Both the position numbers and the translations under genes were made by a program. Shown one piece after another: positions 2,823-50,000 of a stretch of DNA of 64,000 bases. Position 1 is the first letter of the stretch; every line of letters starts with the position of its first letter. The stretch comes from Branchiostoma floridae (lineage: Eukaryota > Chordata > Leptocardii > Amphioxiformes > Branchiostomatidae): contig NC_049988.1 in assembly GCF_000003815.2 (NCBI RefSeq), positions 12,008,405-12,072,404 of the forward strand, written 5' to 3'. The notes below the pieces were generated by a model, which was given only the letters and a program-made list of their open reading frames with translations, was not told the DNA's origin and made no database searches.

Positions 2823-2943
2823 TTACAATGAGTCAAGCACGCAGTCTTTCTAATCACTTTGTTGATTAACGTCTTTTAGATACTGACCTAAGTTATGACG
2901 AACAGTTTACGACAAACAAACACGATGAGAAGTAGGAACCGAC

Positions 2944-3291: not shown

Positions 3292-3898
3292 GGTTAGACC
3301 GTGAACACTTGCAGCACTGTACGGTAGAAACAGAATCGTGCTATCATCGATCAAGTCATAGTGTTGGCAGTCACCTAAATAGTGGGGGAATTTCGAGAGG
3401 TTTCCCAGCTGTATGGGTGAAGAAACAGCTTGTCAGCTCCGGCCAGAACCAGTACGTATACGCCCAGGAAAACATCACAAGCAAGTGGCAAGAGCTGGCG
3501 CAACGGTAGAGATTCTCTAAGGGTCACGTGACGGGGGAGCCAGCACCATCTCATCATCAATTGATTTATCATACAGGTAGTTAGGCCTAATGCCATGTCG
3601 ATTTGATTATATGGATGACATCTTCTGGGAACCCAAAAACTGATGCGAGCGTGCGAATAAAAAAATAATATGTTTGACTAAAATAGTTACCTTCACTTCA
3701 GCATGAAATCTAAGTGTTGAGAAAGGTTGAACAATGACGGAACACAACTTTTCGGTAAGAGCGACGGAATCTTTGCTTGTATTATGATTAGATTATAACA
3801 TTGGAAATGCATTTCAGTTTCACATTGTTAAACAGTTGGCTCACTTCGGCCAAAATCTAAAAAAAAACTACATTTTTCATAGGCCTTAAGTATCTCAC
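3292..3898. other. Upstream of the GPCR exon, no gene seen
   Basis: This should hold the 5' UTR and perhaps the promoter of the minus-strand GPCR. The weak in-frame ATG at 3354 lies here. I see no TATA box that I would commit to. Confidence 0.4.
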
Positions 3899-6905: not shown

Positions 6906-7589
6906 TATTCTCTATCGTTTTGATGGTTTCGTTCTCGCCCATAGGTAGGGTGGAGGGGGGTTCGAGCAGGTGCCATGTTGTGTTGATCAAGTGAGCCCCC
7001 AAGTCATGACTTACATCCATCACGCTATATTGCGACTGTAACTCGCTGCCTCGATTGTCTCTCTATCTAGATCTATATGCTCAAGTCATCTGCAATGACA
7101 TCTCAGCCGCGGTACAGTTCGACAGTTGGTTTATTCTATCATCCGGTGCAGCCTCTGTGTATCTTGGAGGTAAAAGGTGAAGAAAAATGGTGTCCAATAC
7201 ATATTGTGGATAGGCAATGATTGTGGAACCACAAGTATGTGCGAGCTAGGAAAAAAATACATAATTGATGAATTATTCAACGCACGTAATGCTACTCTAT
7301 CTTTGAGAATGAGCATTGCTGAGGAACAGATCCACAAGCATCAGATGGGGTGTAGTGGTATGGAACATCCCATTCGCACACAATGATCCCAAACGACTGC
7401 GTACTGTGCACCACTGAAACCCAACACACACAGACTACATGTAATGCATTAATAAGCTGCAATGTATTCCCAAAACCACTCTATTTCTTTCCTTCTATGT
7501 CCTCCTAGCTTAGGGAAATGCCACCATAGCATGATATAATGCCTATCATTCATGTAATCTTACGCTCCCTTGATAGCAAACGGTGATAC

Positions 7590-8630
7590 ACTGCGAAACC
7601 AATTAAAAGACAACCTACGGATTGGCTTACCTCCTTTTTCTGTCGGTCGTCAATCAAGTGTTGATAGCCTCGGATTAAACCTTCAAGGTAGAGGGGCCAC
7701 AGTGCCAGCAATAGTTCGGTTATAACTCAGCCATCTCTTCATCGGTAGACCGTTACTTCAATTACAGCAAAACCAATAATTAAAACTCAACCTAAGGATT
7801 TGCATATCTCTTTTTTTCTGTCTGTTTTCAATCACGTTTTGATAACCTAGGATTTCACCTACACGGTAGAAGGGCCTCAGTGCCGACAATAGTTCGGTTC
7901 TAACATAGCCATCGCTTCCGAGCGGTATACCGTTATTTCAATAACAGCAAAACCAATGATTAAAGCTCAACCTACGGATTTGCATATCTCTTTTTTCTGT
8001 CGGTCTTCAATAAAGTTTTGATAACCTAGGATTTCACCTACACGGTAGGGGGGCCTCAGTGCTGACAATAGTTCGGTTCTAACATAGCCATCGGTTCCGA
8101 GCGGTAGACCATTACTTCAATTACAGCAAAACCAATAATTAAGGCTCAACCTACGGATTTGCATACCTCCTTTCCTGTCGGCCTTCAGTCAAGTGTTGAT
8201 AGCCTCGGATTAAATCCAACACGGTAGAGGGGCGCGATGTCGACAATAGTTCGGTTCTAACTTAGCCATCTCTTCAACGGTAGACCGTTATACAGCAAAA
8301 CCAATTAAAGTTCAAACCTATGAATTTGCATAGCTCTTATTTCTCTGCGGGCTTCAATCAAGTGTTGATAGCCTCGGATTAAACATACACAGTAGAGGGG
8401 CCTCACTATCGACAGAAGTTCGGTTCTAACACAGCCATCTCTTCAACGGTAGACCGTTACAGCAAAACCAATTAAAGATCCAACCTTTGCATTTGCTTAC
8501 CTCTTTTTTCCCTTCGGTCTTCAATCAAGTGTTGATAGCCTCAGATCAAGAATCCAACATACTCGGTAGAGGGGCCTCAGTAGTTACCCAGACATCTCCT
8601 CAACCATAGACGGCTCCTTCAATCACTACA
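7590..8630. repeat. Tandem array, about six copies of a 166-178-base unit
   Basis: The landmark CAGCAAAACCAAT and its variants recur near 7590, 7768, 7946, 8123, 8292 and 8458. Each is followed by CAACCTACGGATTTGCAT-like, TCAATCAAGTGTTGATAG-like and AGTTCGGTTCTAAC-like blocks. The units have diverged and contain no open frame. Confidence 0.8.
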
Positions 8631-14698: not shown

Positions 14699-16934
14699 CT
14701 GAAACACAGTTGACACATTGAATACTTAAGTTAATTACGTACCTATAGCAACAAGAATACCTCTCATCACCTTTTCACTGCCCCAACAAATTTGACCAGC
14801 GTGTACTTCTTCTAGACAGACGAAAGTTAGAAATACTTCAGCTGGTATTGAAACTTTGCTGTCTTCCAAAAGCAATGCAACACGTATGGTTGTATTGTTG
14901 CATTGTGTTCTGTTGTATTTATTAGAAACGAAACGTTTTCATAATCAGTCGCCATTGTGATACTATGGGAATCTCTGTTGCATATTACTAAACTTTTGTT
15001 AGCATACATTTTTGCTTACATTATCTATTGTACATAGTCAAAACACGGTTACGTTCAATTCCCGTCTACATGTACATATTTGCGTTTATGTTATTGAGCT
15101 CGACAACACTGTGCATTGAATGTTCATTGTCTTTGTATATTGTGATCTAAAAACAAAAACAAATTTGTAATAGATATAAAGATGAAGCATCACACTCGCA
15201 TATATCCCTATAGTTTCAAAGTAGAACTCTTGAAATCATTTCAACCAAAAGCAAGTACTAAAGAGATGCTCCAAACAAAGAAATAAGCAAGCAAGCCGCT
15301 GAATGTCAAGGAAAGAAGCTATACATCGACATGGAGATACATGCAGAATAATGAAGTTTGGAGATAACACTTACCACCACCATGCAGGACAAGAAACCGT
15401 CGCTGCAGTAGCACTGTTCGCAGGGCCCCACCGCCACCCACATCCCTTCCGGGATCTCTCTCTCGCCGAAACGACACGACGACCGAGCAAGGCTGTTTAT
15501 TTGTCTTCTCGCTGGAAAACAAACAAACAAACATCACCAGGTCTACTTGACTACTTGTTTATCGGAAATATGGTACAGCTTTTAAGTACAGATAACATTA
15601 ACGTTACTACAAATCTCTATACGGCAGCGCTGATTACGAGTACACACTATGGAAAGTGTTAAAGGACTCTGGAGTAAATAACTTTAAACAGAATGTCAAA
15701 GACGCCACAAAGGTAGGATCTAATAGCAGACGTTGGAAGGGAAGAACGTTATGATATTTATTTGACTGTCCTGTCTTCTGACATGCTATCGGTAGCATCA
15801 GTTAGAAAAGCTGTGCGATCGTCCCTCCCAACACGTGCTTGGATACTGTCACAAATGCAGTAAATGTCATTGTGAGAAAGAAAGAAAGAGCACTAAATGT
15901 TTCTTGGACATAAGAGTTGGATTCAGCTAGATTCTTCACACACGCGATATCAACAGAGAGGCTCTGGTTTCAGAAAATTGGGTCAAATAGCTCAGAAAAC
16001 GTTTCTTCTTACCATACACTCGCTTGCTTCCCTGAAACGCATGCGCGCCCTCTTGTGGACCCTTACACGCTGCACAGCACTGCCCGGGTATTCTCTCCAC
16101 CTCAGCACAGTCCTGGGAGTAGAAACACTGCATGGAGCTGCAGTGGAGCTTGCCGTCGTTGCAGCTGCACCTGGTGCAGTCGTTGATTTTCTCATAGGAG
16201 CCGTCTGCGATGACTAAGCCTTCGAAGGAGCAGTCTCCATGCTTGAAACTGTCTGCTGAAAAATAAGATAAACGTTGTACTAAATTTAGTTACATTTGAA
16301 GACTTCCTATCAAGCAAGCAAGCAAGAAACCAAGCAAGCAACCAAGCAACCAATTATGCAACCAAAAAAACAGCAAGAAACCAAACAACCAAGCAAGCAA
16401 CCAAACAAGCAAGCAAGCAAGCAACCAAGCAAGCAAGCAAGCAAGCAAGCAACCAACCAACCAACCAACCAACCAACCAAGCAAGCAAGCAACCAGCCAG
16501 CCAGCCAGCCAACCAACCAACCAACCAACCAACAAACCAACAAACAAACAAACAAACAAACAAAAGAGCCAACCAGGCATACGAACACAATCGTACTTAC
16601 CCTTGTTTGCTTTGTCCACGTGATCCCATTTCTCTGCGCACACGTGACACCTCGAGATCATGTCGAACTGCACCCTGGGACACCAGAACGGATAGGGCCC
16701 ACACTTGGAGGCAGTTCCCGGATGATGTGACGTCAGACTATTCGCCTTCAGATTCAAGAAATCACCGCTCCCTAATTTGGAAACAAAATTCAAATGTTTC
16801 CCTTGTCGATCGGTTATCATCTGAGATGCGAAGTTTATCCTATCCCAACGTTCTACAACAAACATTTATGAAGAGTACACAAGTCACATGCCCATATATG
16901 ACAGATGAAATGGATGACACCACAAGAAAATAAA

Positions 16935-23000: not shown

Positions 23001-23955
23001 AGCCGAGCTAAATTTGTCGTCGCAAAACTAGAAGTGTCACACTCCACAAGCATAAATCACTATAAATATAAACCTGAGGGCCCAGGGCATCATTAGGACA
23101 TACTCTAGTGTGTTCACGCGAACATGTGACACCACAAACCATGGGTGGACCCCGTGACTCCACCATTACCACCGGCACATGTTTGCAGACATTTTACGGG
23201 AAAATGACGCAATGACAGTTGCTGCACTGTAGGATTTGATCTTGTAGCACACTTTTGCCATATTTCACATAGGCTACACTGTGTAAAGGCCATACAGCAT
23301 TTCTCCTGGACTATGGGTACAATAGCTGATACGTATACCCCTCTATGTTTACCTATCTACATCATGACTTTGAAGAACAGATTTCCAATATCTGTTGCGG
23401 TTGTAAGGACGATAGATTTAATCTCCGAGTAGAAGTCAATTTTGTCGTTTTTTACGTAGACTGTACAGTGTATGGCCATACCGTATTTCTCCTGGACTAT
23501 GGGTACAATAGCTGATACCCCTGTATCGAGACCATGACTTCAAAATGACAGGTTTCCATGATCTGTTGTAGTTCTAAGGACGATGATTATTTAGCGTTAT
23601 ACGTTACAGATGAATATTTTGTATCGTTTCTGGAGCTCACATGGAAGCACCCAGCCCGACACGTGGGGTTGTTGTTCTGTGGAGCACGCGCCGCCCGTGT
23701 CCTGTTACCCAACACACGTACACAACACGCGGGCGCAGCGTGGCCTTACCTCGGTGCCTCGGCGCCGCAAGACTCGCCCCTGTCCCGGGAACACACGTCG
23801 CAACAGTCGCACTCGTCCCTGACCATCTCGCAACCGTCCGCGGACAAAGCGGGACATTTGAATCCGGCCTCGTGTCGGCACGGACACAGGATGCTCATCG
23901 GAAGGACGGTCCCGACGACCGAAGTGACCAAGATGACCAGTGCTCTCCCCGCCAT
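14588..23955 (-). CDS. Gene A: secreted IGFBP-VWC protein, 330 residues, six exons
   Basis: Exons (minus strand): 23955-23750, 18157-18033, 16771-16601, 16255-16013, 15511-15375 and 14698-14588. They total 993 coding bases, and the phases match at every join (2, 1, 1, 1, 0). The start at 23955 has A at -3 and G at +4 and opens a hydrophobic signal peptide. Exons 1-2 form a 14-cysteine IGFBP-type domain with CPC, ECDCCDVC and CASGLVC landmarks. Exon 3 holds a short Cys segment like the second half of a VWC domain. Exon 4 encodes a full VWC domain (CTRCSC, IPGQCCAAC). Exons 5-6 encode a second VWC split after CMVV (CEQCYC, then VSGVCCPVC) and the stop. The layout resembles CRIM1-type IGFBP plus VWC proteins but lacks a membrane segment. 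Extracellular growth-factor binding (BMP or IGF class) is inferred from the domains only. It is a tandem paralogue of genes B and C. Confidence 0.82.
15375..15511 (-). CDS. Gene A exon 5: first half of second VWC
   Basis: A TTTGTTTTCCAG acceptor (phase 1) leads to a short linker, then SSCRFGEREIPEG and CEQCYCSDGFLSC. The GTG|GTAAGT donor is phase 0 and splits the VWC domain after its fifth cysteine. Confidence 0.82.
16013..16255 (-). CDS. Gene A exon 4: complete VWC domain
   Basis: The 243-base exon is phase 1 at both ends. It encodes a full VWC domain with DCTRCSCNDGKLHC and ERIPGQCCAACK, then an 18-residue basic linker. The acceptor is TTTTTCAG, with a second CAG three bases later (a NAGNAG pair). 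The chosen donor is G|GTAAGA at 16013; a competing T|GTAAGG donor at 16067 is also in phase. Confidence 0.8.
16310..16563. repeat. AAGC/AACC low-complexity tract in a gene A intron
   Basis: Runs of CAAG, CAAC and CAAA tetramers fill the intron between gene A exons 3 and 4. Long open frames here in several phases are an artefact of the tetranucleotide composition. Confidence 0.9.
16601..16771 (-). CDS. Gene A exon 3: half-VWC-like Cys segment
   Basis: The acceptor is AAATTAG after a T-rich tract and the donor is G|GTAAGT; both are phase 1, so the 171-base exon is symmetric. The C-terminal part (KCGPYPFWC and SRCHVC) resembles the second half of a VWC domain, but it has RCHVC where VWC has CCxxC. 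The N-terminal linker is Ser/Asn/His-rich. Confidence 0.72.
16936..16998. repeat. (TA)n microsatellite
   Basis: An uninterrupted TA dinucleotide run of about 63 bases lies in the gene A intron between exons 2 and 3. Confidence 0.95.
18033..18157 (-). CDS. Gene A exon 2: IGFBP second half
   Basis: A TTTTTCCCAG acceptor opens the exon in phase 2. The completed Arg codon is followed by CASGLVCRHPEC, then a WC and SGTC, giving cysteines 10-14 of the domain. The donor is G|GTCAGT, phase 1. Confidence 0.85.
18967..19086 (+). mobile_element. LINE 3' end with CAAA tail
   Basis: The segment holds TGAAAAGCGGCATGCAGGCC and ends with TTCAAACAAACAAACA. It is a copy of the LINE 3' terminus seen on the opposite strand at 26113, 40051 and 55396. 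Confidence 0.7.
19590..20010. repeat. Three tandem copies of a roughly 165-base unit
   Basis: GACAGTCTC(T/C)ATCTGTCGTC occurs near 19598, 19772 and 19931. Each is followed by AATACCCCGCTGCATCATGG, and the first two by a C run. It lies in gene A intron 1. Confidence 0.85.
20011..23270. other. Gene A intron 1, no confident exon
   Basis: A 135-residue open frame at 21733-22140 (minus) is GC-richer than its surroundings, but it has no convincing splice sites or domain. I do not call it a gene. An 18-base palindrome CAAACGTACGTACGTTTG lies at 22493-22510. Confidence 0.4.
23275..23580. repeat. Two tandem copies of a roughly 185-base unit
   Basis: ATTTCTCCTGGACTATGGGT occurs near 23300 and again near 23486 with matching flanks (GGCCATAC before, ACAATAGCTGATAC after). 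The array runs to within about 170 bases of the end of gene A exon 1. Confidence 0.8.
23750..23955 (-). CDS. Gene A exon 1: signal peptide and IGFBP first half
   Basis: The exon encodes a signal peptide of about 20-24 residues (ALVILVTSVVGTVL core), then nine cysteines including CPC and ECDCCDVC. It ends AG|GTAAGG in phase 2. Its coding length, 206 bases, equals that of gene B exon 1. Longer upstream in-frame Met codons exist but lead into low-complexity sequence without a signal peptide. Confidence 0.88.
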
Positions 23956-30597: not shown

Positions 30598-30732
30598 TCA
30601 AGGATCGCAATGTTTCATATGCTGCTTGCAGATTGGACAGCACTGCCCGGGGACGTCCTCCCATTCGGCGCATGTCGGGGTCCACCAGCAGTCGACACGG
30701 TTACAGTCCACCGGCGTCGGCTTGGCGTTTGG
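30598..30732 (-). pseudogene. Out-of-frame VWC C-terminal half
   Basis: Read in phase 0 the terminal exon encodes VDCNRVDCWW, then CAEWEDVPGQCCPIC and a short tail to TGA (30600-30598). This is a good VWC second half, but exon 12 ends in phase 1, so it is out of frame. Either a phase-0 exon has been missed or a deletion fused a mini-exon to a VWC half. Confidence 0.6.
30701..30732 (-). CDS. Gene B exon 13: short last coding exon
   Basis: A CTTTTTCAG acceptor joined in phase 1 gives Ser-Lys-Arg-Gln-Ala and a few more residues before TAA (30703-30701). The start resembles the KRQ mini-exons. A different frame of the same exon continues a VWC half to 30598. Confidence 0.6.
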
Positions 30733-33700
30733 CTGAAAAAGATACATTGACACAGTGGTGCTTACTCCAATTAGTGTATGAACTTCCTTGATTAAGATCA
30801 AATCTTAAAGTTCAACATTACTGAATCAAAGAGCATGCTGGGATATGATTTTGGCTGCTATCACCCCGAATGAAGTCAGAGAGCAGTTGAATATCAATTA
30901 CCAACAGTGAGTGCATTGAACAGTGTTATTTGCTGTACATGTTTTGCTCGATGGCCGGTGTCGGTTCAGGGGTACGCATGTAATTTTTCAATAAAGCTGA
31001 AGTTAAAAGGCTCCACCCCTGAGGCGTTAACAAAAACAAAAACGTTATCATTTTAAACTTACAGGCAACAGGTAGCGGTACGATCTCTGATGGAAGCTCG
31101 AGGTCCTGTTGGACACACACGGGGCAGCACTGGTCAGACGGGTACTCCCACTGGACACAGTTGGGTGGCCAGCCCCACGGACAGTCCACGTGTGTGCAGA
31201 TGGACTGACCGTTGAAACAGGTGCACGGCTTACAGGGGGTCACGTGTGCAAACTCTCCGTTCGGGATGGTCACGCCGTCCACCTGGGAGTGAATCAAAGG
31301 GTGGATGGATTGAAGGATGGCGAGATAGATGGATGGCCGGATGAATAAATTAATTACTGGGGCTGTTTTACTATTTACGTAAAATTTATATATTATATAG
31401 CTAAAACGTCGTTATATTTGGCCTCCGGGGGATGTCACAGATGACCATGTCAGGAAAAGTTTCTCTTGTTCTTTATCTTCACGCAAATTTTGAGGACTAG
31501 ACTTAATACCAAACAACCCCATTTTAAACCAATATAACAGTCTACGTAAAGACTATAATTTGTTGTAAAATGTTGTAAATTGCTCACAATGTCGTATTTG
31601 TTCATTGTGTTCCATCACAATTATTCTATGTTCACCAGAAAGTTTTTTTCTTTAATTTCGCGATTGTTTTAATTCACCACTGGCAGTTTTTTGGTCAACA
31701 TACCTCGCAAGATTCTCCCTCGAATGGAATGGCCTGTCGTTTGGCTGTAAGGGAAAATATATCATGTATTCGGACATCGACAATACAGCAGTCGAATAGT
31801 CGCTACACATACCATACTTTGACATAAAAAGATAAGCATGTTTCTGCCTAACCTTATGATAACTAGAGTTCAGGCACCACCATACCTTTCCTACTGGGAC
31901 AAATTTGGACCCGGGCCAACTCAGCTTGGGGAAAAAGTGAGTGAAGGCCAACAGTAGGCACACACCGACACATGCAGACCGAAAACAAAAACTTCACAGA
32001 GGTAACAACAAACAAAAGTGAATGTACTTACACAGGAGAAGGGGGAGGTCCTGGATGATGGGTTGTAGGTAGGTCTTACAGACAGGACAACACTGTCCTG
32101 GAACACGCTCTGTCTCCGCACAGTTAAACAGCGGAGCACAGGCGACGGCCTGACACAGCGTCATCCCGTTATCACACGTACACGTCTCACAACCATACTC
32201 GTCAGTCGGCACCCACTCCCCCTCAGGTATGGTGACTCCGTTCGCCTCACAGGTGGTGAAACTGGTACAGACCGGACAGCACTGGCCCGGGACTCGTTCG
32301 GTTTCGGCACAGTTGGCCGGCAGGGCGCAGGCGATGGCTTGGCAGATCGGTTGCCCGTTCACACACGTGCACGTCTCGCATCCGTACTGGTCGGTTGGCT
32401 TGGACTCCCCCTCTTGAATTGTGACTCCGTTAACCTCGCAGGTGGCGTAACTGGTACAAACCGGACAGCACTGGCCTGGGATTTGTTCGGTCTCGGCACA
32501 GTTGGCCGGTAAGGCGCAGCCAATGGCCATGCAGAAGGACTGACCGTTGGAACACCCGCATGTGGTGCAGCCGTTCTGGTCAATCGGTTTGAACTCGCCT
32601 TCTGCAATGGTCACTCCATCAACCTCGCAGGTCGTGGGGCGGACGGGCGAGGTGCGTTTGGCTGAAATAAACAATCAAACAAACAATCAATGAAACAAAC
32701 AAACAAACAAACAAACAAACAGAATAACTATATGAGGAAAATGTCCAAATGACATGTTAACGTTTCAGAAAATTTGAACTTGTTAGCCAGACTAGAACGA
32801 CGATGATCTATGTGTTGTCCTGTGTAGTTGTAATCATAACCAAAGGGTTTCAGTTCTCCGGATTTGACTGATTTAGATTAACTGATGGTCACTCCCTAAA
32901 GGGATGAAGAACGTTTGGCTGAGGTTAAAATAACGGATATGAAATCGTCGCAGAATAAGGCAGGTTGATAATAATGTTGCAATACTAAGTCAACACTACT
33001 AATCAGGCTCCGCCCCTGAGGCGTCCTCAAAATATCAAGTTCTTACTTGTGAATGATTTATGCATAACAAAACCACCACCGTCTAGCTTTCTGATATCAA
33101 AGCTCATTAAAGAGATATGCAGAAGTTGCTATTACTATAAAATTAAAATAGGTGCTTCGAGGTATTGGCCGAAAGACGACCCCCAAACATGCCACCATCA
33201 GTCCAGTATTATCAACGTTACAATGCAACCTGCATGCAGTGCGACAGAAATGTGCTAGGGGACAATATAATATCCTTCATTTTGGTAACATCCAACGAAA
33301 GAACGAAGGAACAAACGAACGAGCGAACGAATGAACCGACCAACCGACCGACCGACCGACCGACCGACCGACCGACCGACCGACCGACCGACCGACCAAT
33401 AAAAACTAAAAAAAAAAAAAACTCAGCTAAAGTAATCATGTAACGTTACTTACAGAGCATGGGTATGTCGACGTGGTGCTGGTGGTACGCGGTACATACG
33501 GGACAGCACCGCCCGGGAACGCGCTCCCACTCCGCACAGTTGATGTCCAGGGCACACGCCATGGACCAGCACAGCGGCTGTCCGCCGGTACAACCACACT
33601 CGGTACAGCCGTACTCGTCAGTCTGCTGATACTCTCCCTCTTCAATAGTCACACCGTCCACTACACATGCACGGGCTGGGGTCTCCCGTTTAGCTTGGGG

Positions 33701-36700
33701 AAAAGATGTGGAGTTAGAAACGGGGGTGGTGGGTGTAGGATTGCCTTGGTTGACACATTTGATGACATTCTGAGTGAAAAAAAATAAAAAAGACAATGGT
33801 ATCTAAATATCAAGCATTATTATATGACAACAATGATGGCTGGGAGCTGCCCAAGTCCTACATACTCCTACTCAGCAAGTAGGCGGGGTGAGGGGCAGAA
33901 GATCCACGCAAGTCTCGGACTTAGTCTCGCACTCTCGCGAGAGCTATGTCACTCCGTGAACTAGATGGACTGATGGCCACCGAAAATTCGGCGGTACGTG
34001 TGTTTGCCTTTCAAAATAGGTCACTTTTAGAAGAAAAATTCTATTAGCCAAAAGTAATTCGCTATCTGTGATATTTTGAGAATGCCTTACATGAAACCTG
34101 ATCATAAAACATTTGTAAAGGATACGTGTCTGAAGCCTATTGCATGAAAAAGGCAAAGGATCTAGGCAATGGCGTACTTATGTCATCATTCATCACTAAC
34201 TTTCGAAGTTGTCATAAAACAATAAGATACACCTACATGCAACAGGCGACACCCATGGGTGTCCGTCCTGCACACACACGGGACAGCACTGGTCATCGGG
34301 GTAGGCCCACTGGGCACAGTTGGGCGACCAGAAACAGTCCACGACAGCACAGATCGGCTGTCCATTGAAACAGCCACAGTGCTGACACGGGGTGACGTCG
34401 ACAAATTCTCCTTCCTGAATCGTTACACCAGAAACCTGTAGAAGTGAATGAAAAGTGACAGATATTTTCAGGACGTGCACAAGAAAAACGTGATTGTGGT
34501 GTTAGAAGACAGATAGCGTCAGTAGAGAGCAACACCTGCAAGGCAAACATAAATCGCAAGAGGTCGCGGGCGAACGTTCTTTCCCTGAAAACTTGTATGT
34601 TGGCAGTGTTGGTGATAATGACAATAAAAAAATAAAATAAAACAAAACAAAACAAGCAAAATAACTAAATTCAACGTTATTCTTACCTCACAAGAAGTTC
34701 CAGACCCGGGAAGAACCTGTCGTTTTGCTGCAGTAAAATGATAACAGACAGGGTTGTTAATGATCGCGGATTCATTCTTGTTTTGTAAGTCACAGTAACT
34801 TTAACCGTTGTCTTTAAGTGACGATTATGGAAACCAAGTAACACTCATAAGCAAAAGAAAGGTGCTTTTAATATGATTTGTCGAAATATAAGGATTAATA
34901 TTCCTTTATTTCTTTGCAAACAACATTGTGTGGATCTATAACAATGGGTCTATAGCAATGGTCAGTCTATCGACCTCACAGGTCGTGGGACGCTCGGGCG
35001 AGGTGCGTTTGGATGAAACAAACAATCAAACAATCTATCAAACAAACAAACAGGTTAATGCAAACGTTGATATCAATATTAAAAGAAACGCGTTCTAAAG
35101 ACACATGCTTTTGGCCTGCTAGTGGCGCGCGCTGGAACGACAATAAACTATATGTTGCCCCTGTGAACTTACCAAGGTTTCAGTTCTCTGTATCTGACTG
35201 TGAATTCAGAGCCAAATCTTGCTGTTACATTACTGCTACCAACGTTTAGCGCCATGGCCTTAATGGAGGCTGATAGCACTAAAGTAGCTTTGTTGAATAC
35301 TTACTCTGGTTCATGATCCCTAAGGTGTCGACAACAAACTATCTGTAACAAACTTACACAAAATAGGCAGGTCGATCGGCAAGGCCTGTTGTACACACAC
35401 GGGACAGCACTGGTCGTCATGGTGCTCCCAATGTGCGCAGGCGCCGTGCACGATGCAGTCCTGGTGCGCACAGATGGCTTCTCCGTTGGAGCAGGTGCAG
35501 TGCTTGCAGAGCGTGACGTCAGCAGACTCCCCCTCCTGGATAATGGTACCGTCCACTTCACAGCCGGTACTGACACAGATCGGACAACAATGGCCGGGGA
35601 CCTGTACAGTCTGGAGACAGTCGGCGGGTAGGGCGCAGCCAATGGCCATGCAGAACGACTGACCGTTGGTACACCCGCACGTGGTACAGCCGTACTGGTC
35701 AACCGGTTTAAACTCGCCTTCTGCAATGGTCACTCCCTGCACCACGCAGGTCCTCGAAAGGGACGAAGAGCGTTTGGCTGAGGTCAAAACAACGAAATAC
35801 CACATTTTAGGGATAATGTTTCAATACGGAGTAAATACTATTAATCAGGCTCCGCCCCTGAGGCGTCCTCAAAATATTTTTAAGTTCTTAATTGTGAACG
35901 ATTTAGCAGTTGCAAAACAACCAACCAACGTTTTCTGATATCAAAGTTCATTAAGAGATAAGCAAAAGTTATTATTACAACAAGATCCAAGCAGATGTTG
36001 GGAGGTGTTGACAGAAATAAAGACTACCCTCCCAGCACGCCATCAGCATCATTATTCCAATATTATCAACGTTTCAATGCAATCTGTATGTTACGAGTAC
36101 TACAGAAGTGCGCTAGGAGACAATATTGGACCCTGGCCTTCAACCAACCAACCAACCAAGCAAGCACCCAAGTAAGCATCCAACCGACCGACCGACCAAC
36201 CAACCAACCAGCTAACCAACCATTCCTCTGCTAAAGTAATCAAGTAATGTTACTTACAGACCATAGGTATGTCAACGTGGTGCTGGTGGTACGCGGTACA
36301 TACGGGACAGCACCGCCCGGGAACGCGCTCCCACTCCGCACAGTTGATGTCCAGGGCACACGCCATGGACCAGCACAGCGGCTGTCCGCCGGTACAGCCA
36401 CACTCGGTACAGCCGTACTCGTCAGTCTGCTGATACTCTCCCTCTTCAATAGTCACACCGTCCACTACACATGCACGGGCTGGGGTCTCCCGTTTAGCTT
36501 GGGGTGGAAGGGATCAATATAGAGTTACACATGTACACGAGTGCTTAAAGATCGTATTTTATGTAATGATGTTTTTGAGACTTCACATCCATAATGAACG
36601 TCTATACAGCCGTTTCACCAATTGCATACTTATACATAGCTGTAAACAACAAATAATGTTTATCAGTAAATAAATAAACAAAATACCTACATGCAACAGG

Positions 36701-39700
36701 CGCTACCCATGGGTGTCCGTCCTGTACACATACAGGACAGCACTGGTCAGCAGGATAGGCCCACTGGGCACAGCTGGGCGACCAGAAACAGTCCATGACA
36801 GCACAGATCGGCTGGCCATTGAAACAGCCGCAGTGCTGGCACGGGGTGACGTCGACAAATTCTCCCTCCTGAATCGTTACACCGGAAACCTGTAGATGTG
36901 AATGAAAAGTGCCAGATATTTTCAGTACGTGCTCAAGAAAAACGTGATTGCTGTGTTTAATAGAAGGCAGACAGTGTCAGTAGAGAGCAACACCTGCAAG
37001 GCAAACACAAATCGCAAGAGGTCGCGGGCGAACGGTCTTTCCCCGAAAACGTGGATGTTGGCAGTGTTCCAGTGCAAATACACAAGTGGGATGCGATGGC
37101 CAGTCTTGCCAGTTATTCTCGAAGCGGGACGTCGGGAGGGGCTAGAGTGACCCGGGGGTCACGGAAAAGCGTTTTAGAGGTCTTGGCCTCCAGTAAATGT
37201 AAGGTGATAATAACAATAGGCCTTTAAAGCAAGGCATTGATGAGTTGAATATGAACTAGAGTTCCACGAAACACATACCTTCGCCAAACAATGAAGGGTT
37301 GTTATGGAGAATGCCTTTATCAATGACTTAAAGGTTTTAAAGCTTCTCAAGTTATGTTATCCGCACACACACACACTCACACACTGAGCCCGCTGCAGTA
37401 CCGACGGAAGATACCGGGCGAACCATTTTCAAACTCAACCTTTGTTTCTGCGACCGCTACTCAATACCAAGTATCATGAAGATCCATCAATCAGTTCTCC
37501 AGTTATACTGTTGACCTACATAAAGACTCACCTAACACTATGGCTTAAGCCTTAACCAAAAGTGTAATCTTCTTGGCAAAGGTAATGAAAAGGCCACAAA
37601 CCACCAAGCTTCCACTTTTCCCTGCAACATAAGCATCACCAAAATAAGGGGGAAAACACCCCTTGACATGAAAATGGAGAAACCCCTTCCCATAGTGCAC
37701 AAACAAACAACATGGCACTTGCAAAGTGAGAACTAATAAACAATGTGTTAGCAACAATAACATCTATGTTTTGCTGACACAAATATGTCATGAACTACAC
37801 AAGTCTGCATCACAGATGTAGTTAGACACTGAGCACTGACTGTCCAGAAAAGAGGTCGATTGAAGGATTTACACATTCTTCTAATTATCATGTAAATTAA
37901 GCCCCGATTTGCATACAATACATTTCAGGATTTTAATCATTACCTAAGGTATGTACATACCAAAAATAATGCAAATCCACCGACCCCTGCTTGATTTACT
38001 CTATTTCAAAGATAACAACAAAATGGCCCACTGCAGTTCAAAACAAGCCGCCAGGGTGCCCAAACTTACACGACTTACTCCCTACCCAAAGACGTATCCA
38101 CTAGCCAAAAATCCTCAACCTGCCACTTCAGGATAACTTTAACGCCAACTTCGACGCTTCGCTGCAGTACCGCAACTTGTCGCCAGGATGCCCATAATCG
38201 AACTTGACCGTCGTTTTTCAAACCCCTAAATAATTACCAAATATAATGCAAAACGATCCACAGCGTCAAAAGTTATATTGTACGCAGATACACACACACA
38301 CACACTCACCCCGCTGCACTCAAGACAGAAAGTGCCAGAGGTACCATCTTCGTACAAAACCTTTGTATCCGCAAACGCAACTCAAATACCAAATATTGTG
38401 ACATTCCATCCACAGCTGCTCGAGTTATATGAGATTGACCTACATATTGGGACACCCGAAAATTTTCTAACCAAAATATAACCTTCTTGGCGAAGGTAAT
38501 AAGAACAACTCAATCTTAACCCGTATCTTTTTATAAAGTTTGAACTGTGGAATTTGAAGGTCGTGTAAGTTATAGATAGGGATCTGCAAGTATGTATACA
38601 GTTCATAAGCAGATAAGTATGCATATGGAATTACGTCAATAAGGGTATATCAGTGTGTTATCGTTGTGTATTCTCTCTCTCTCTCTCTCTATCTCTCTAT
38701 TTCTCTATCTCTCCCCCTTTCTTGAGTACTCTGTGCATGCATCACTTGTGACTCGACAGTGTAAATCTGCCTGTAAACAGCTGATGATTGATTCACTCTA
38801 GTCTGTACTATTTAACACCACCGTGGACCTGTACACCACTTAACTCCCATGTTGTTTTCACCGCTTAAGATTCATCCGGCCGGAAACGCGCACATTGTGA
38901 TTCGACAGTAAATAATTTAGCCTGTAAACAGCTGATGATTGATTCACTCTAGTCTGTACTATTTAACACCACCGTGGACCTGTACACCACTACTGACACG
39001 TCCAATTTAACTCCCATGTTGTTTTCACCGCTTAAGATTCATCCGGCCGGAAACGCGCACATTGTGATTCGACAGTAAATAACTTAGCCTGTAAACAGCT
39101 TATGGTTCATACACACTAGCCTGTCTTTTAACACCACCGTGGTACCTGTACACCGCTACTGACACGTCCAATTTAACTCCCATGTTGTTTTCACCGCTTA
39201 AGATTCATCCGGCCGGAAACGCGCACATTTTCAACAGCCCTTAACATTTCCCTATCAGCGGTGCTGACGTAAACGCAATTATGTTGTGGGCGGAAAAGGG
39301 CATTTTATAAACCTCCTTCCGGAACTGTTTCAATTAAGACCTTACCGCCCACTCCTCTTGAATCCCAACCAAGGCAAACTCATTCCAACGAAAGCAACAG
39401 CTGAATAAAGGACTGATCATCATGATTCCCTTTAAGGTGTTAATCCCATATGTGCGCCGATGGACAACCAAAGTCTGATTAAATTTTTCTTTCATCGGTT
39501 TTTCATAAAGTTATGAATGTATCCTTCATGATCCAATTTGGCATGATCCAATTTGTCATGTACAATCAATCAATCAGTCAATCAATCAATCAATCAATCA
39601 ACCAACCAACCAACCAACCATCCAATCAATCAATCAATAAACTAATTTGCAACTAAGGGCTGAATTGTGCCCTCTTTACATGCAACAGATTGCACTTCCT

Positions 39701-42700
39701 CATCATACTGCCATATATAACGTAAACACAATAAAGCCCTTTTTTTCAGTCCAGCGGGCGACTGAATTAAGTTCTGAATTGATCTTCATGAATCATTTTG
39801 AGGTAAGTGTAGCCCCCCCCTCTCCATACTTAATCAGCGTTTGGCCTACAAAGAAACAAACAAACTAAAACAAACACACAGACACACAAACAAACAAGAG
39901 ATTATTATTACCTCACAGGAAGTTCCAGAACTGGGAAGAGCTTGTCGTTTTGCGGCTGCAGTAAAATGATAACAGACAGGGTTGTTAACGATTGCGGATT
40001 CATTCTTGTTAAGTTACGGTAACGTTAACCGTGGTCTTTAAGCGGCGATTATTTGTTTGTTTGCATCTTTGTTTATTCATGAAAGCTCAAATCGGCCGGC
40101 AGGCCGCTTTTCATGGAGGTCATGAGGCAAGGGTCAGACAAAGTATATAACAGATCAAGGAGGTTGTATAGATACAGTTTACATCACAAGTCCTAAAGAG
40201 TCTTATAAGTCTATACACAATTTTTACATACATGGTACAAAATACATAATAGTAAGAGCTGCTACATGATTCAAATCCATTCGTTTTGGTCGTCCCCGTT
40301 ACATTAAGAGTCTCTTGAAGGAAGCCAAAGGAAACCAAGTTACACTCATAAGCAAAAGAAAGTATCTTTAATATGATTTCTGGAAATATATAAGGGTTAA
40401 TATTCCTTTTTTTCTCTTCACGACTCACGTGGACCTATAAAAGTTAGAGGTATCTGTACTAAGTTAACAAGCGTGAGAATGTACCGGCTGTGCCGCTTTC
40501 CTCACACGTCCCCCTCTGGAAGTGTGGGAGGAACAAACATGGCGGCTCTGATAACTGCTGCGTCACCGTTCCGTCGGGCAGCGTGACGTCAACAACCTGT
40601 GGGTTACATTCCTCCAACACGCACGTCAGCCCAGCGGCACAGCTGGACATTTAAAAAAGACAGAAGAGTTCAGCGATATATCTGAAGTCTAAAATATCTA
40701 CAGTTTCATGTATGCTTTGTTTACTCAACGTGTAGTTCATTCATAATGCCGGGAAAAATGTTTTCATTGATATTAAACGAGTCTATTGATCACTTCCTGT
40801 CACCTGACAATGAACGTACCTGCATAGGAAAAATATCTGGCAAAGCACACGTACATGCAGACAAATAGGCAGACCAAAAACAATACCTCCCCGTATATTA
40901 GTATAATTTTCCTCTGTCCTCATGACCTGGATTGCCGGATAAATTACTAGTTTTACCACCTTTGAACTATTTGGCACTGTCGCTAATAAGACACTCCAGT
41001 CTATCACTTCACACAGTGCCAATAAGAACCACTTAGGCTAAGGGACACAAGTCAGTAATTTATTTTTCAAAGTAAGTTGGATAAGTTTCAGCGCTTATGT
41101 CGTGAATGAATTTGGATGTCCCTGAAGCTCATCTAATAGTAGCCTCACAGTTCAGCTTCTGGTTCCAATCACAGCGAGGAGATCCCGGTTCAATCCCAGG
41201 ATAGATCTGCACCCGTCTTTTGGAAGGGACGTTAAAGGGGAATTCCGGAAGGCCCAGTAAACCCTCCTTGTAAAAACGTATATACATTGCTACAGAAACA
41301 TCACGGAAACGTGCTGGCCTATGTGTCACTAGGTACTACAAGGGACTGCACGAACGAACCAACGAGTGACGAAGTTTATGAAAGTTACTTAATAGACATT
41401 TAGGACAGAAACTCTTTACTAGGTCAACTGGATAGAATATAGACACAAAACACCAGGAGGACAGCACAGATGTATGTCCCATGCTGTCAAGTATCGCCAC
41501 AACTCCATTCATACAATATTTTGTAAAATGCATGTCATGCCTCCTGCTGTCAAATATCATCAAAACCTCATTCCTACAATATTTTCATGTTTGTCCCCTG
41601 CAGACAAGTACCGTCAGATATCAATTCATGCAATATTCTCAATCATACTGAACGAATCATCCGCAGTTTATATATCGATGTAAGTAACCAAGGAAATATG
41701 AAGTAATCTGAATGCCAGCATGACGCGTCTTGATACATGTAATTAATTGTCAATTGTTGTAAAACATAATACAGCAAAGGCAGAAGTGCCTGCTTTCCAA
41801 ACTTCACAGAATGGAGAAACTTATTGAAGGATATATTTGCTCAGTGCAAGGCCAGGACTGGGAGCCAGACTTACAATCATTGGAACAGCATCTATTCTTC
41901 CGAATGGCACACTCTCACCGGACGTGGGGGCACGCTTGCGGAATTGTTGGGTTCGGAAGATACTTAACGAATTTCAGATATAAAGAACGAATTTTCTTAC
42001 TTGCTGTGTATTTTGTCTTCTTCTATGTTATGCTTTTAGGTATTTCGCAATATCTGAATTATAAAAAATCGGAGAAAATAACAAAATATTGACGCAGTGA
42101 ACGAACGCAGCAATGCCACAAGCGTACCCCACGTCCGGTGAGAGTGCACCTTAAGTTAGAAACAGGATTATTGAGACAGGCTCAACTTACTGACCCAATA
42201 CGATAAGTAGCTGGGGGACTCGAAAGCTACTTGGGAACTTTTTCTACCTCTAACTTGCCCCTTAAGTTTCCTCACCGGACCCAGGGATCTAAGGCACTTT
42301 GGGGGTGGGTGGTTGTTTGGTCTAATCTCTTAGTGTCTGTAATTCAAATCTTTTCATTCCCAAACTCTTCATTTTCTAAAACTTTGTCGTCTTCGGGTTT
42401 CTGAACTTTAGACGGAAAAATGAGAACAAATTGGATCATCCTCATTAATTTTGGATTATTTTTTAGATATGCCATCAATGTAGAAATGTTCAAACCTTGG
42501 TATTATCACAAGTGCTTATTCTCATTTTTTTTACGACTTTCCACCCACCTGGGCAGCCCCGTACCGCACGGCTCTCCCCGCACGCCGGCGCACACATCGC
42601 AGCAGCCGCACTCGTCCTTAGTCAGCTCGCAGCCCTCGGGGACAGGCGGGCATCGGTAGCCTGGCTCCGCATAACACGGGCAGTACGGCCGGTACGCACC

Positions 42701-42754
42701 CACCACAACAACGGACACACATACCAGCAGTATGCTCAACTCTACACGTACCAT
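30701..42754 (-). CDS. Gene B: secreted IGFBP plus about ten VWC domains
   Basis: Exons (minus strand): 42754-42549, 40642-40485, 39955-39912, 36889-36691, 36497-36258, 35777-35358, 34727-34687, 34435-34237, 33693-33454, 32661-32032, 31744-31704, 31282-31063 and 30732-30701. They total 2670 bases including TAA. Reading phase is kept at every join, giving 889 residues. Exon 1 starts with a signal peptide, and exons 1-2 form the same 14-Cys IGFBP-type domain as genes A and C. The rest is VWC domains: C..CxC centres and a closing CCPVC, joined by KR-containing linkers beginning Ser-Lys-Arg. Most junctions are T|GTAAGT in phase 1, and alpha-type VWCs are split after the first Cys by a phase-0 intron. 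Chordin, kielin and CRIM1-type VWC proteins bind BMPs outside cells; that role here is inference. The 3' end is odd: the last exon reads only ten residues before TAA, with an out-of-frame VWC half beyond it. Confidence 0.8.
31063..31282 (-). CDS. Gene B exon 12: alpha VWC, unit 3
   Basis: The 220-base exon (phase 0 in, phase 1 out) encodes VDGVTIPNGEF, CKPCTCFNGQSIC and SDQCCPVCVQ, then a longer linker. It is more diverged from exons 4 and 8 than they are from each other. The donor is T|GTAAGT. Confidence 0.86.
31704..31744 (-). CDS. Gene B exon 11: KRQ mini-exon, unit 3
   Basis: The 41-base exon encodes KRQAIPFEGESCE between TTCCCTTACAG and GAG|GTATGT. Its length and phases equal those of exon 7. 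Confidence 0.82.
31886..31924 (-). pseudogene. Possible mini-exon or beta-exon acceptor relic
   Basis: CTTTTTCCCCAAG|CTGAG resembles the acceptor region of the beta exons (CTTTTCCCCAAG|CTAAA). A 39-base phase-1 stretch ending G|GTATGG could be spliced in frame, but the protein has only one Cys and no VWC features. It is left out of the gene B model. Confidence 0.5.
32032..32661 (-). CDS. Gene B exon 10: triple VWC, unit 2
   Basis: The 630-base phase-1 exon encodes the linker KRTSPVRP and three consecutive VWC domains, closing with IPGQCCPVC, VPGQCCPVC and VPGQCCPVC. The second and third domains are similar to each other (CETCTC centre), suggesting duplication within the exon. The donor is T|GTAAGT. 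Confidence 0.9.
32696..32722. repeat. (CAAA)n microsatellite
   Basis: A CAAA run lies just upstream of exon 10 on the minus strand. A matching run at 35036-35052 lies upstream of the dead copy of that exon. Confidence 0.85.
32884..32918 (-). pseudogene. Relic of a KRSSS-type VWC exon, unit 2
   Basis: After an intact CCTCAG acceptor the minus strand reads KRSSSL and then hits TAG. Compared with exon 6, about 18 bases are missing where the first Cys would be. Similarity ends just after GGGAGTGACCAT. Confidence 0.8.
33334..33398. repeat. (GACC)n microsatellite after exon 9
   Basis: The tetranucleotide run lies in the intron following exon 9. Its open frames in several phases are compositional. 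Confidence 0.9.
33454..33693 (-). CDS. Gene B exon 9: beta VWC, unit 2
   Basis: The 240-base copy of exon 5 shares the KRETPARA linker and VPGRCCPVC. The only protein change I find is Leu for Val near the donor. Confidence 0.88.
34237..34435 (-). CDS. Gene B exon 8: alpha VWC, unit 2
   Basis: The 199-base copy of exon 4 has acceptor TTCTACAG, CQHCGCFNGQPIC, DDQCCPVCVQ and a T|GTAGGT donor. The intron on its 5' side is also alignable with that of exon 4. Confidence 0.88.
34687..34727 (-). CDS. Gene B exon 7: KRQ mini-exon, unit 2
   Basis: The 41-base exon (phase 1 in, phase 0 out) encodes KRQVLPGSGTSCE. Its acceptor is TTTTACTGCAG and its donor GAG|GTAAGA. It donates the first Cys to exon 8. 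Confidence 0.82.
34955..35012 (-). pseudogene. Relic of a KRTSP-type VWC exon, unit 1
   Basis: The minus strand matches the start of exon 10 (KRTSP linker, PTTCEVD) for about 58 bases, including the upstream intron with CAAA repeats. Its acceptor reads TTTCAT instead of TTTCAG, and similarity stops just after GACCATTGC. It cannot be spliced as the intact copy is. Confidence 0.82.
35358..35777 (-). CDS. Gene B exon 6: double VWC, unit 1
   Basis: The 420-base phase-1 exon encodes the linker KRSSSLSR and two VWC domains. The first is VPGHCCPIC type and the second DDQCCPVC type. No intron separates the two domains. A dead copy of its beginning lies at 32884-32918. Confidence 0.88.
36140..36220. 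repeat. CAAC/GACC microsatellite after exon 5
   Basis: The run lies at the same place relative to exon 5 as the GACC run does to exon 9. It has a different repeat mix, so it has evolved since block duplication. Confidence 0.85.
36258..36497 (-). CDS. Gene B exon 5: beta VWC, unit 1
   Basis: The 240-base symmetric phase-1 exon encodes a linker KRETPARA and one VWC (CTECGCTGGQPLC, VPGRCCPVC). Its acceptor is CCCCAAG and its donor is T|GTAAGT. It is about 98 percent identical by eye to exon 9 (33454-33693). Confidence 0.88.
36691..36889 (-). CDS. Gene B exon 4: alpha VWC, unit 1
   Basis: The 199-base exon is phase 0 in and phase 1 out. It encodes VSGVTIQEGEF, CQHCGCFNGQPIC and DQCCPVCVQ. It is a close duplicate of exon 8 (34237-34435), which has the same length and phases. 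Confidence 0.88.
37074..39880. other. Insertion in the unit 1 intron, no exon
   Basis: Unit 2 has about 80 bases between the shared GTTGGCAGTGTT sequence (near 34605) and the KRQ exon. Unit 1 has about 2.8 kb here. It holds CA-rich, CT-rich and CAAT microsatellites (38668-38720, 39563-39640) and a tandem repeat (38758-39235). No VWC exon is visible inside. Confidence 0.65.
38758..39235. repeat. Three tandem copies, about 155-175-base unit
   Basis: CCTGTAAACAGCT(G/T)ATG, ACACCACCGTGG, ACTCCCATGTTGTTTTCACC and CATCCGGCCGGAAACGCGCA recur in order three times. The first copy is shorter and lacks the ACTGACACGTCC segment. Confidence 0.9.
39912..39955 (-). CDS. Gene B exon 3: KRQ mini-exon, unit 1
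   Basis: This 44-base exon (phase 1 in, phase 0 out) encodes AKRQALPSSGTSCE between a TTTTACTGCAG acceptor and a GAG|GTAATA donor. It supplies the first Cys of the next VWC. It is three bases longer than its copies at 34687 and 31704. Confidence 0.8.
40051..40331 (-). mobile_element. LINE 3' end inserted in the gene B intron
   Basis: It carries the CGGCC(G/T)GCAGG and CAAACAAA terminus of the family at 55396. The duplicated intron of unit 2 (near 34830) runs from CGATTAT straight into GGAAACCAAGT without it, so its boundaries can be read from the alignment. Confidence 0.85.
40485..40642 (-). CDS. Gene B exon 2: IGFBP second half
   Basis: A TGTCCAG acceptor (phase 2) completes a Ser codon, followed by CAAGLTCVLEEC, then PPC and RGTCEE. 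These align with cysteines 10-14 of genes A and C, with a longer insert between cysteines 12 and 13. The donor G|GTACAT is phase 1 and the weakest splice site of the model. Confidence 0.78.
41120..41330 (+). mobile_element. SINE-like repeat with pol III B box
   Basis: A B-box-like GGTTCAATCCC lies at 41187-41197, followed by CCGTCTTTTGGAAGGGACGT. The A box is weak. Probably a tRNA-derived SINE fragment. Confidence 0.45.
41907..42153. mobile_element. Harbinger-like MITE copy
   Basis: Ends CTCTCACCGGACGTGGGG and CCCCACGTCCGGTGAGAG are inverted repeats. The interior shares TTCAGATATAAAGAACGAAT with the element at 47087-47333. Confidence 0.8.
42549..42754 (-). CDS. Gene B exon 1: signal peptide and IGFBP first half
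   Basis: ATG opens a strong signal peptide (ELSILLVCVSVVVVGA), then CPC, ECGCCDVC and PCG. The donor AG|GTGGGT is phase 2. The exon is 206 bases, identical in length and phase to gene A exon 1. Confidence 0.9.
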
Positions 42755-47000: not shown

Positions 47001-50000
47001 GATAGAAGCAAAGATCCAGTCTGATAGTCCGGGTTTACGAAACGAGTATAGGGCCTTCATGGTGTTGGCGTTATCGCTTTAGCTTAAGGCCCCCTCTCAC
47101 TTGACGTGCGGCACGCTTGCGGCATTGCTGCGCTCGTTCACTGCGGTACTGTTTTGTTATTTTCTCCGATTTGTTTTAATTCAGATATTGGCGCAATACG
47201 TAAAAGTGTGACATAGAAGACCACAAAATACACATCAAGTAAGAAAATTCGTTCTTTATCTCTGAAATTCGTTGAGCATCTTCCGAACGCAGCAATGCCG
47301 CAAGCGTGCCGCACGTCAAGTGAGAGGGGGCCTTTACGCACGCCTACTGTACAAAACTGGTGTATTATGCCGAAAGCTTAGGTCCCAATTGGGAAAACCT
47401 GGCAGTTCACTGGCTGTTTTTTTTTTGGCTTCGTTGGGGCACCTTGCGGCTTCGTGGGTATTTTTAGGCCCGGCTGGGCACTAGGTTGAATTTAAGTCGG
47501 ACGGAATTAAAGTTAACCCGGGACCCGGTAAGAAATTTAGACGGCGTGACCTACCCGTGGGTAACACTTACCTGGAATCCAGTCTACCGTGGATTGGCCA
47601 GGCTACCTGCGGGACAGGAGGGTCTTTCCACCGCCTGGGTAATCTTTCACACCCGGTAGGAATTTTGCACGGTGGGAGTTAAATTTGCCACTGCTGACCG
47701 GCTAATTATCCCACTGGGCTAAAGTCTAACCGCGTGAAAATCCTACCGGGTGTGACCGATTACCCCTACGGCTGGGAGCTACACTGGCCCCGTACAAAGC
47801 CTGCACTAACTACGGTAGGCCGAGCCAGTAGTAGACTGGATTCCAGGTTAGGGTAACACCGGTAGTCCACCGGGACAAATTTGCGGCTTCGGAACCTGGC
47901 CAGGGCTACATCCCTGACGGGCACCCGTGCAATTGGAACCTGAGCCTAAAGGCGGCATACCGATTAGGCTTAGGTCACATTTCCAAGTCGGGGCCCGGGC
48001 GGGATGTTTTAAGAAACGAAAAATTAAGATGTATACACAGAAATATACATACTCATGCCCGTGAATCTTATACAGTAGAAGCCAGTTAATTGCACAACGG
48101 ATTAACGCACACTTCTGTTAACTGCACGTTATCCCAAAATCCCAAATCAGTGCGGTCCAGCTAGATAGCTTCGCATACTTGCACCAACCGGATAATTGCA
48201 CGAAATTCACTGGCAAATAGGCCGTGCAATTAAGCGGCTTCTACTGTATTGACATTTTGTGCACTTTTGATGTCTTTTGTGTCATTCATTTCGCTCCCGA
48301 AAGCTGCCCGGCCGGGCCCCGGTTTGGAAATGTGACTTAAGCCTTACGAGGAACTAAAAAGCAACATGACATTGTATGATATTTCAACTGTAATATTTCA
48401 ACATCAGAATATCATCCATGTGAAGTTCTAGTCTTGACGTACCCGGCACTAAACAAACCGCATGTCTGTCCTTCTTGACGCGCGCACACGGGGCAGCAGC
48501 CGCAGTAGTCGTCGGTGAGCTCACAGTCGGTGGGCGGGGGAGGGCAGGTGAAGTCCGCCTGGTACATGCACGGGCAGTACGGAGGAGACAGGCGGGGCGC
48601 TGCGGTTGGGAAGTTGATTTGATTTATTTGGCTATATAGAGAGAATACGTTTATGAAGGTTAGACATCCAGGTAAACAATATTCAAATACAATTCAATCT
48701 CTACAACTGGATAGTGACGCTGAAGAAGAGTGATGGATGTCACTCGAAACGTCCGGAAGTAAATATCCCGTTTTTTATCCAGTTGTAGAGATTGAATTGT
48801 ATTTGAATATATAGAGAGAAATACAGCCATGGCTACCCAACTAGCCGGAGGCTATTCAGGATTAGCTCTGGTAACTGTACAATATTCAATAACAATATTA
48901 CGTTTATCTATACACGAGGTTTGTCTGTCGAACAAGGTTATGCAGATAACGCAAGATACGGATAATTTGAGATACAGAGACGACCTGTGTTTACTAGCTA
49001 GGCTAGCAGACGTACTACCTGCGAAACTCTATCTATTATACGTTGATGTCTCTCGAAACGTCCGGAAGTAAATATCCGTTTTTATCCAGTTGTAGAGATT
49101 GAATTGTATTTGAATCTATCTATTATAGTGTTCGTACTTTCTGCGATATTCTATCTATGGTACAAGTAGCATTACGAGGCTATCTATATTAGGCTGAAAC
49201 GTTATCGCAGTTATGAACAGAATAGAATCATATAATCATCTCATCATATGATATCATAACTGAAATGTACATAAAAACACAAAGGGTGTGACTCACTAAT
49301 GAACATGTTCGTCAAGCAGATATAGAAGTAAATCATTTCACTACATGACTTATAGGAAAAAATGTTAACAAAATACTATACTACCATTCCATATTATCAT
49401 AGCTAAGTTTATTTTGTGGAATTTTATTAATGTTTAAGGTAAGTTACTAACTTGCAATTGAGTGCAGTGTCATTGTCCCTGACTTTCTCTTAAATGAAAT
49501 TTAACCAAATCATGTCAAGTTGATTTTGTCCTTTCTACGCATTGAGTGTTGGGTAAAGATATTTCTCAAAATCTTACAATATTCATACAGTTTGGTTTAT
49601 ATTGTTAGAGTGAACGAGCAATATTAATCTTATTCATTTATTACAGAATTACTACCCATTTTAAAGAATAGATAAATAGATTTCCCCGATCACACACCAC
49701 TAGTGTTGCGGAAGCAAACAAGCTCTGTTTTGATGTGAAAGTTTACCAATTTTGATTACCGACTTGTAAAGAAGCGTGGGAGTCAAGGAACTTTCCACGA
49801 GTAACGTTTTCAATGTCTTCATCCACATCTGCGCTATAGCGCTACGCGTCAACAAATCCGTTTCTACTCATAGTCAGAGAGCATGTCATATATTCTGAAG
49901 TGTTGTCACGGTCCAGTGGTGGTCTTCTCGATCTAGTTTCACCCTTTACAAGATGAGGTCAACGACAGAATGTTATATAATATTTCTCTCGGGTTCCAAA

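Follow-up and report, generated by a model that had tools for sequence, protein, structure and literature searches.

Intragenic block duplication is already known from nebulin and titin. The triplicate region of nebulin (NEB) is described, in passages of PMC9109913, as eight exons repeated three times, and in titin (TTN), according to passages of PMC9142044, a 9-exon block occurs three times and its first two exons once more. Gene B of the lancelet Branchiostoma floridae, analysed here, is similar in that a multi-exon block is tandemly repeated within one gene, and its third, partial unit resembles the two extra exons of titin (passages of PMC9142044). It differs in that its introns have diverged by up to ~20% and each copy lacks one exon; the nebulin and titin passages of PMC9142044 and PMC9109913 contain neither exon relics nor a breakpoint within an exon. 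Gene B is a clear, broadly ordinary example of modular growth. It can also be compared with divergent resolution (reciprocal loss) of duplicated genes, whose copies come to lack different parts. Gene B shows the same outcome within a single gene, where one of the two losses most likely corresponds to the breakpoint of the duplication.

At the protein level, gene B shares tandem VWC modules with chordin, NEL/NELL2, kielin/chordin-like protein and CRIM1. An IGFBP domain precedes the VWC modules in CRIM1 and in the CCN proteins; CRIM1 consists of IGFBP, VWC and antistasin modules plus a transmembrane segment, and the domain order of the CCN family is IGFBP-VWC-TSP1-CT. Identity with CRIM1 was rejected: IGFBP and VWC domains are present, but Pfam reports no antistasin domain in the gene B model, and no C-terminal hydrophobic stretch is seen by eye. 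Identity with the CCN family was rejected as well, Pfam finding no TSP1 or CT domain in the model; no EGF domain is reported there either. The initial annotation knew of no comparable case in the VWC family, and this is not contradicted within the open-licence PMC literature, where we found no described VWC block duplication (the passages of PMC6071037 concern chordin).

The window, 64,000 nucleotides long (contig C10:12008405-12072404), contains gene B entirely on its minus strand. Splice sites and phases yield a predicted model of 13 exons with consistent phases that would encode 848 amino acids (coordinates are those of the window):

42549-42754, minus strand: exon 1, with the start codon, a signal peptide (by eye) and the first part of the IGFBP domain
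40608-40642, minus strand: exon 2, end of the IGFBP domain, with a donor GTAACC picked by phase
39912-39955, minus strand: unit 1 KRQ exon (KRQ1), a linker and the first Cys of a VWC
36691-36889, minus strand: unit 1 alpha exon, remainder of the VWC begun in KRQ1
36258-36497, minus strand: unit 1 beta exon, one VWC
35358-35777, minus strand: unit 1 KRSSS exon, live, two VWC
34687-34727, minus strand: unit 2 KRQ exon (KRQ2)
34237-34435, minus strand: unit 2 alpha exon
33454-33693, minus strand: unit 2 beta exon
32032-32661, minus strand: unit 2 KRTSP exon, live, three VWC
31704-31744, minus strand: third KRQ exon (KRQ3)
31063-31282, minus strand: third alpha exon (alpha3)
30599-30732, minus strand: terminal exon, reading SKRQADAGGL and then a stop in the frame set by phase

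The exon order is therefore exons 1 and 2, KRQ1-alpha1-beta1-KRSSS, KRQ2-alpha2-beta2-KRTSP, KRQ3-alpha3 and the terminal exon. The GTAACC donor of exon 2 was chosen since it keeps phase 1; GTACAT at 40484 is an alternative. Three Pfam families were found in the model at an E-value of 0.01 or better: VWC (PF00093; 164.4 bits against a cut-off of 27.6, in 10 stretches), IGFBP (residues 27-76, 30.0 bits against a cut-off of 28, one stretch) and FnI_RECK (33.7 bits, cut-off 30), the last overlapping a VWC, with no single stretch passing alone. By the curated cut-off of PF00093, gene B encodes a VWC-domain protein, and the predicted product is secreted, bears a signal peptide and combines an IGFBP domain with ten VWC modules. 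In a tree of the ten modules, the division into alpha-like (a1, a2, a3, krsss2) and beta-like (b1, b2, krsss1, krtsp1-3) modules is the only supported separation, the inner forks being without support. The beta, KRSSS and KRTSP exons are in phase 1 at both entry and exit, the KRQ/alpha join is in phase 0, and in the model KRQ and alpha together behave as one phase-1 module. Because the boundaries between blocks and modules are all in phase 1, loss of KRSSS or KRTSP keeps the reading frame open.

Within this model, a five-exon block occurs twice on the minus strand, its two copies colinear and arranged head to tail, at ~40440-34955 (unit 1) and 34941-32604 (unit 2). Gapped alignment of exons and introns recovers five colinear segments in the same order in both units (unit 1 / unit 2, ungapped columns):

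40440-40275 / 34941-34770, minus strand: segment 1, 132 of 164 columns identical
40052-39851 / 34828-34623, minus strand: segment 2, exon 37 of 42 and intron 134 of 154 identical
37068-36670 / 34610-34214, minus strand: segment 3, exon 184 of 199 and intron 178 of 196 identical
36504-35726 / 33700-32885, minus strand: segment 4, exon letters (beta and the start of KRSSS) 268 of 274, intron 377 of 461 identical
35210-34955 / 32877-32604, minus strand: segment 5, 196 of 237 identical, relic 1 included

The copies are thus colinear together with their introns, lie within one gene in which the frame of the predicted model is kept, and meet at a novel end-to-start junction. These alignments give good support to KRQ-alpha-beta-KRSSS-KRTSP as an ancestral block that was tandemly duplicated, its order being reconstructed from one genome. 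All ten donor-side exon and relic ends of the initial annotation were found here to within one base (relic 2 ends at 32885 rather than 32884), and the block order that it described as common to both units agrees with the five aligned segments. Its statement that intron sequence is shared holds only in part: between the units, the cores of the alpha-beta introns do not align (score 11, equalled or exceeded in 180 of 500 shuffles), and the KRQ1-alpha1 intron exceeds its unit 2 counterpart by ~2.8 kb. Likewise, microsatellites occupy shared positions after beta (36129-36241 and 33297-33413), but the one at 39555-39655 has no counterpart in the 251-bp KRQ-alpha intron of unit 2. In the KRQ1 intron, a 9-base match, GCCAAACGC, near 39840, after a GTTT run, resembles an exon start and is too short to call.

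The best explanation of the locus, to which we assign a probability of about 0.78, is a single intragenic tandem duplication with a breakpoint inside the KRTSP exon, plus a separate deletion of KRSSS in unit 2. The features that bear most directly on it are two exon relics and the junction beside the first of them:

34955-35012, minus strand: relic 1 ('dead KRTSP'), the first 58 nt of the KRTSP exon, with the acceptor CAG changed to CAT
34942-34954, minus strand: duplication junction, a 13-nt filler TATAGACCCATTG separating relic 1 from the copied pre-KRQ1 sequence
32885-32918, minus strand: relic 2 ('dead KRSSS'), the start of the KRSSS exon, with the AG acceptor intact and the body deleted

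Relic 1 is identical to the live KRTSP exon at 51 of 58 positions and scores 81 against it, compared with a maximum of 28 among 1000 dinucleotide-preserving shuffles of its intron. Relic 2, 34 nt long, matches the KRSSS exon in 32 of 34 ungapped columns, with an 18-nt gap, and scores 35 (shuffle maximum 27). None of the 1000 shuffles reached either score, and background windows outside the gene, on both strands (322 and 254 windows), scored 28 at most, so the relics do not align merely at background level, the outcome that the initial annotation had named as fatal to its reading; its observation that each unit retains the exon missing from the other is borne out. Each relic prefers its named parent to the other live exon (81 against 32 and 35 against 22). 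The KRSSS exon also matches the unit 1 intron that holds relic 1 (score 32, 0 of 1000 shuffles), which is to be expected, the first VWCs of the KRSSS and KRTSP exons being closely related; the KRTSP exon scores 22 in the unit 2 intron (17 of 1000 shuffles). The two relics end, at 34955 and 32885, within 3 bases of a homologous VWC position (...GACCATTGC and ...GACCAT, respectively), a coincidence that the breakpoint account leaves unexplained beyond chance.

That either relic works as a small exon, or as a poison exon under regulation, seems very improbable. Relic 2 does retain an AG acceptor and AGCNAAACG, the motif found at exon starts, and, read by eye in the live exon's frame, it meets a TAG, as a poison exon might. 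However, relic 1 has no AG acceptor, no good donor is seen by eye close to either relic, and most of the parent exon of relic 2 is gone.

At the junction, relic 1 stops at 34955, and 13 bp away, at 34941, begins the copy of the pre-KRQ1 sequence (corresponding to 40440). Because the end of relic 1 lies this close to the copied upstream sequence of unit 2, a whole KRTSP exon in unit 1 probably never existed, and relic 1 is most simply read as an exon cut at birth by the duplication breakpoint. The filler TATAGACCCATTG resembles the sequence on each side, as end-joining fillers can. Five control searches for matches beyond the breakpoints (300 shuffles each) revealed no homology continuing past them, although three scored above the bulk of the shuffles. 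Exon 2 plus intron 2, upstream of 40440, scored 18 against the boundary region (98 of 300 shuffles as good) and, weakly, 26 against unit 2 (8 of 300), the latter including an 18-base match, 16 bases identical, to the KRTSP exon. The body of KRTSP scored 23 (1 of 300), which reflects 14 bases of relic 1 matching the start of a later VWC, and between relic 1 and KRQ2 nothing of KRTSP past base 58 was found beyond a 9-base word. Sequence downstream of KRTSP did not match the boundary region (score 21; 172 of 300 shuffles).

In unit 2, the alignment jumps from a match at 35726, within KRSSS, to 35210, in the next intron, over 7 bp, so that ~515 bp of unit 1, including bases 53-420 of the KRSSS exon, are absent. 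Because of this jump across 7 bases, relic 2 is read as a deletion. The remaining control, the deleted part of KRSSS against the rest of the unit 2 intron, scored 27 (0 of 300 shuffles) and represents a GTTT-type simple repeat. The alignments point to the loss of KRSSS in unit 2 as a separate, later deletion and the sole later exon loss.

The initial annotation proposed instead that the whole five-exon block was duplicated and that decay or deletion then independently deprived each copy of a different multi-VWC exon. The presence of both relics, with each unit keeping the exon absent from the other, is compatible with this history, and the broken acceptor and amino acid changes of relic 1 (by eye, 4 of the 7 differing bases alter amino acids, at 3 codons) fit decay. 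It would require, however, a separate deletion that stops exactly at the unit boundary, where one breakpoint explains both the truncation and the junction, and we consider it unlikely. A whole duplication followed by a deletion from KRTSP to near 40440 is possible and gives the same DNA, but needs two events. Hence the duplication part of the proposal stands, the two independent losses are better replaced by a breakpoint truncation and one deletion, and the statement that each copy lost a different exon is partly supported, as a description of the outcome only.

Under the single-duplication explanation, one intragenic tandem duplication of KRQ-alpha-beta-KRSSS-KRTSP would have enlarged gene B, with one breakpoint near 40440, in the intron preceding KRQ, and the other within the KRTSP exon after base 58. 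The breakpoint inside KRTSP would leave a stump in the first copy and a whole KRTSP exon in the second, and the acceptor of the stump would have been lost afterwards. Separately, unit 2 would have lost ~515 bp, comprising the greater part of KRSSS and some of the intron that follows. Mobile elements would subsequently have lengthened different introns in the two units, with gene conversion and purifying selection keeping alpha, and above all beta, alike.

Divergence varies along the units: it is 9% in the introns flanking alpha and 13% in those flanking KRQ, and reaches 17% in the last segment (counting relic 1), 18% after beta and 19.5% upstream of KRQ. For alpha1/alpha2, dN is 0.026 and dS 0.321; for beta1/beta2, which differ at 4 of 237 coding bases, dN is 0.005 and dS 0.059. 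In either pair dN is much smaller than dS, so that both units appear to be under protein constraint. With sites taken as independent, beta differs less than alpha (4 of 240 compared to 15 of 199, P 0.004), and the alpha-flanking introns differ less than the beta-KRSSS intron (18 of 196 compared to 84 of 461, P 0.003). That dS is so low in beta, 0.059 compared to 0.321 in alpha, suggests that beta1 and beta2 were kept alike by later gene conversion. The KRQ1-alpha1 intron spans 3,022 bp against 251 bp in unit 2, and two interspersed repeats are private to one unit each:

37254-38503, no strand assigned: interspersed repeat of ~1.25 kb in the KRQ1-alpha1 intron, absent from the 251-bp partner in unit 2
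33831-34046, no strand assigned: interspersed repeat in the alpha2-beta2 intron, whose 193-bp unit 1 partner does not align

The first is up to 97% identical to other copies and has at least 52 matches, its own included (40 scored of 2,498 candidates); the second has at least 49, its own included (40 scored of 476 candidates). Near its ends, the 1.25-kb repeat carries a ACCTTCGCCAA-like inverted sequence; a comparison of two 55-base stretches at these ends for target-site duplications found no common word of 6-12 bases.

These differences bear on whether the two units could be an assembly fault, with two haplotypes placed end to end. Lancelet genomes are highly polymorphic, which makes such a fault conceivable. 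However, most introns of the block differ by 13-20%, each unit has its own interspersed repeats, and the junction falls inside an exon, all of which renders this explanation very improbable.

The array extends beyond the two blocks. KRQ3 (31744-31704), absent from the exon list of the initial annotation, and alpha3 form a third, more diverged KRQ-alpha pair; alpha3 is 70-72% identical in DNA to alpha1 and alpha2. The terminal exon contains the C-terminal half of a VWC most like beta (39 of 50 columns), in a frame other than that set by the exon phase, and may be a decayed beta. With KRQ3, alpha3 and this beta-like exon, the array comprises two blocks and the first part of a third.

A close copy of the block was sought as an outgroup elsewhere in the genome (513,431,437 bases, 431 contigs), by protein and DNA searches, and none was found. 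The protein of the KRTSP exon has 16 matches, 7 within gene B and 9 outside it (48% identity or less), and the DNA of positions 36000-37000 matches outside gene B over a microsatellite only. Three VWC-like matches to the KRTSP exon (48%, 46% and 37% identity) lie within ~8 kb on contig C1 (12320169-12328443); these matches near 12.32 Mb are perhaps another VWC gene, with a similar layout possible.

All dibasic pairs of the 848-aa model are Lys-Arg; there are eight, at residues 83, 163, 243, 383, 463, 543, 753 and 840, compared with ~0.4 Lys-Arg pairs predicted from its composition. Downstream of exon 2 the model has eight phase-1 exons, and each opens with the codons of one such pair; the third base of the Arg codon varies (CGA, CGC, CGG) while the amino acid is constant. 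On the minus strand, the one scanned, the window contains AGCNAAACG eight times: one copy lies at relic 2 and the other seven at acceptors of live gene B exons. The protein could conceivably be a polyprotein of VWC modules that a prohormone convertase cuts at each block, with a parallel in progranulin, which is cleaved into granulins (passages of PMC4527844), but this is doubtful; the likelier reading is that the Lys-Arg linker was merely inherited by every duplicated exon. If the polyprotein reading were true, block duplication would multiply the released VWC products. Among proteins of known structure, those that match the KRTSP exon at the sequence level are chains of NEL, chordin, NELL2 and collagen II, representing 6 distinct sequences. 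VWC arrays of this kind bind BMP/TGF-beta ligands or related partners. By analogy, the secreted product of gene B probably binds BMP/TGF-beta-type ligands.

In the surroundings of gene B, three IGFBP-like exons occur within 25 kb, all on the minus strand: 42551-42754 (gene B), 23752-23934 and 48457-48585. Gene B and its two neighbours may form a tandem cluster of genes headed by IGFBP. Also on the minus strand, at 15939-16289, lies a VWC exon (Pfam 28.9 bits, cut-off 27.6) that may belong with the IGFBP-like exon at 23.9 kb. Three more IGFBP matches are located on contig C1, at 2.19-2.21 Mb. The window also contains an open frame at 2896-3432, minus strand, that by eye looks like part of a seven-transmembrane receptor, and a tandem array with a period of ~175-180 bp at 7580-8582.

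Gene B cleanly captures a modular extracellular gene in the course of its growth. A single within-exon breakpoint would have added four VWC modules to the predicted protein with the frame intact, leaving a stump where the copies meet, and a deletion in the other copy would have followed. Specific predictions for other lancelet species can be drawn from the junction and the relics, which makes the order of events testable.
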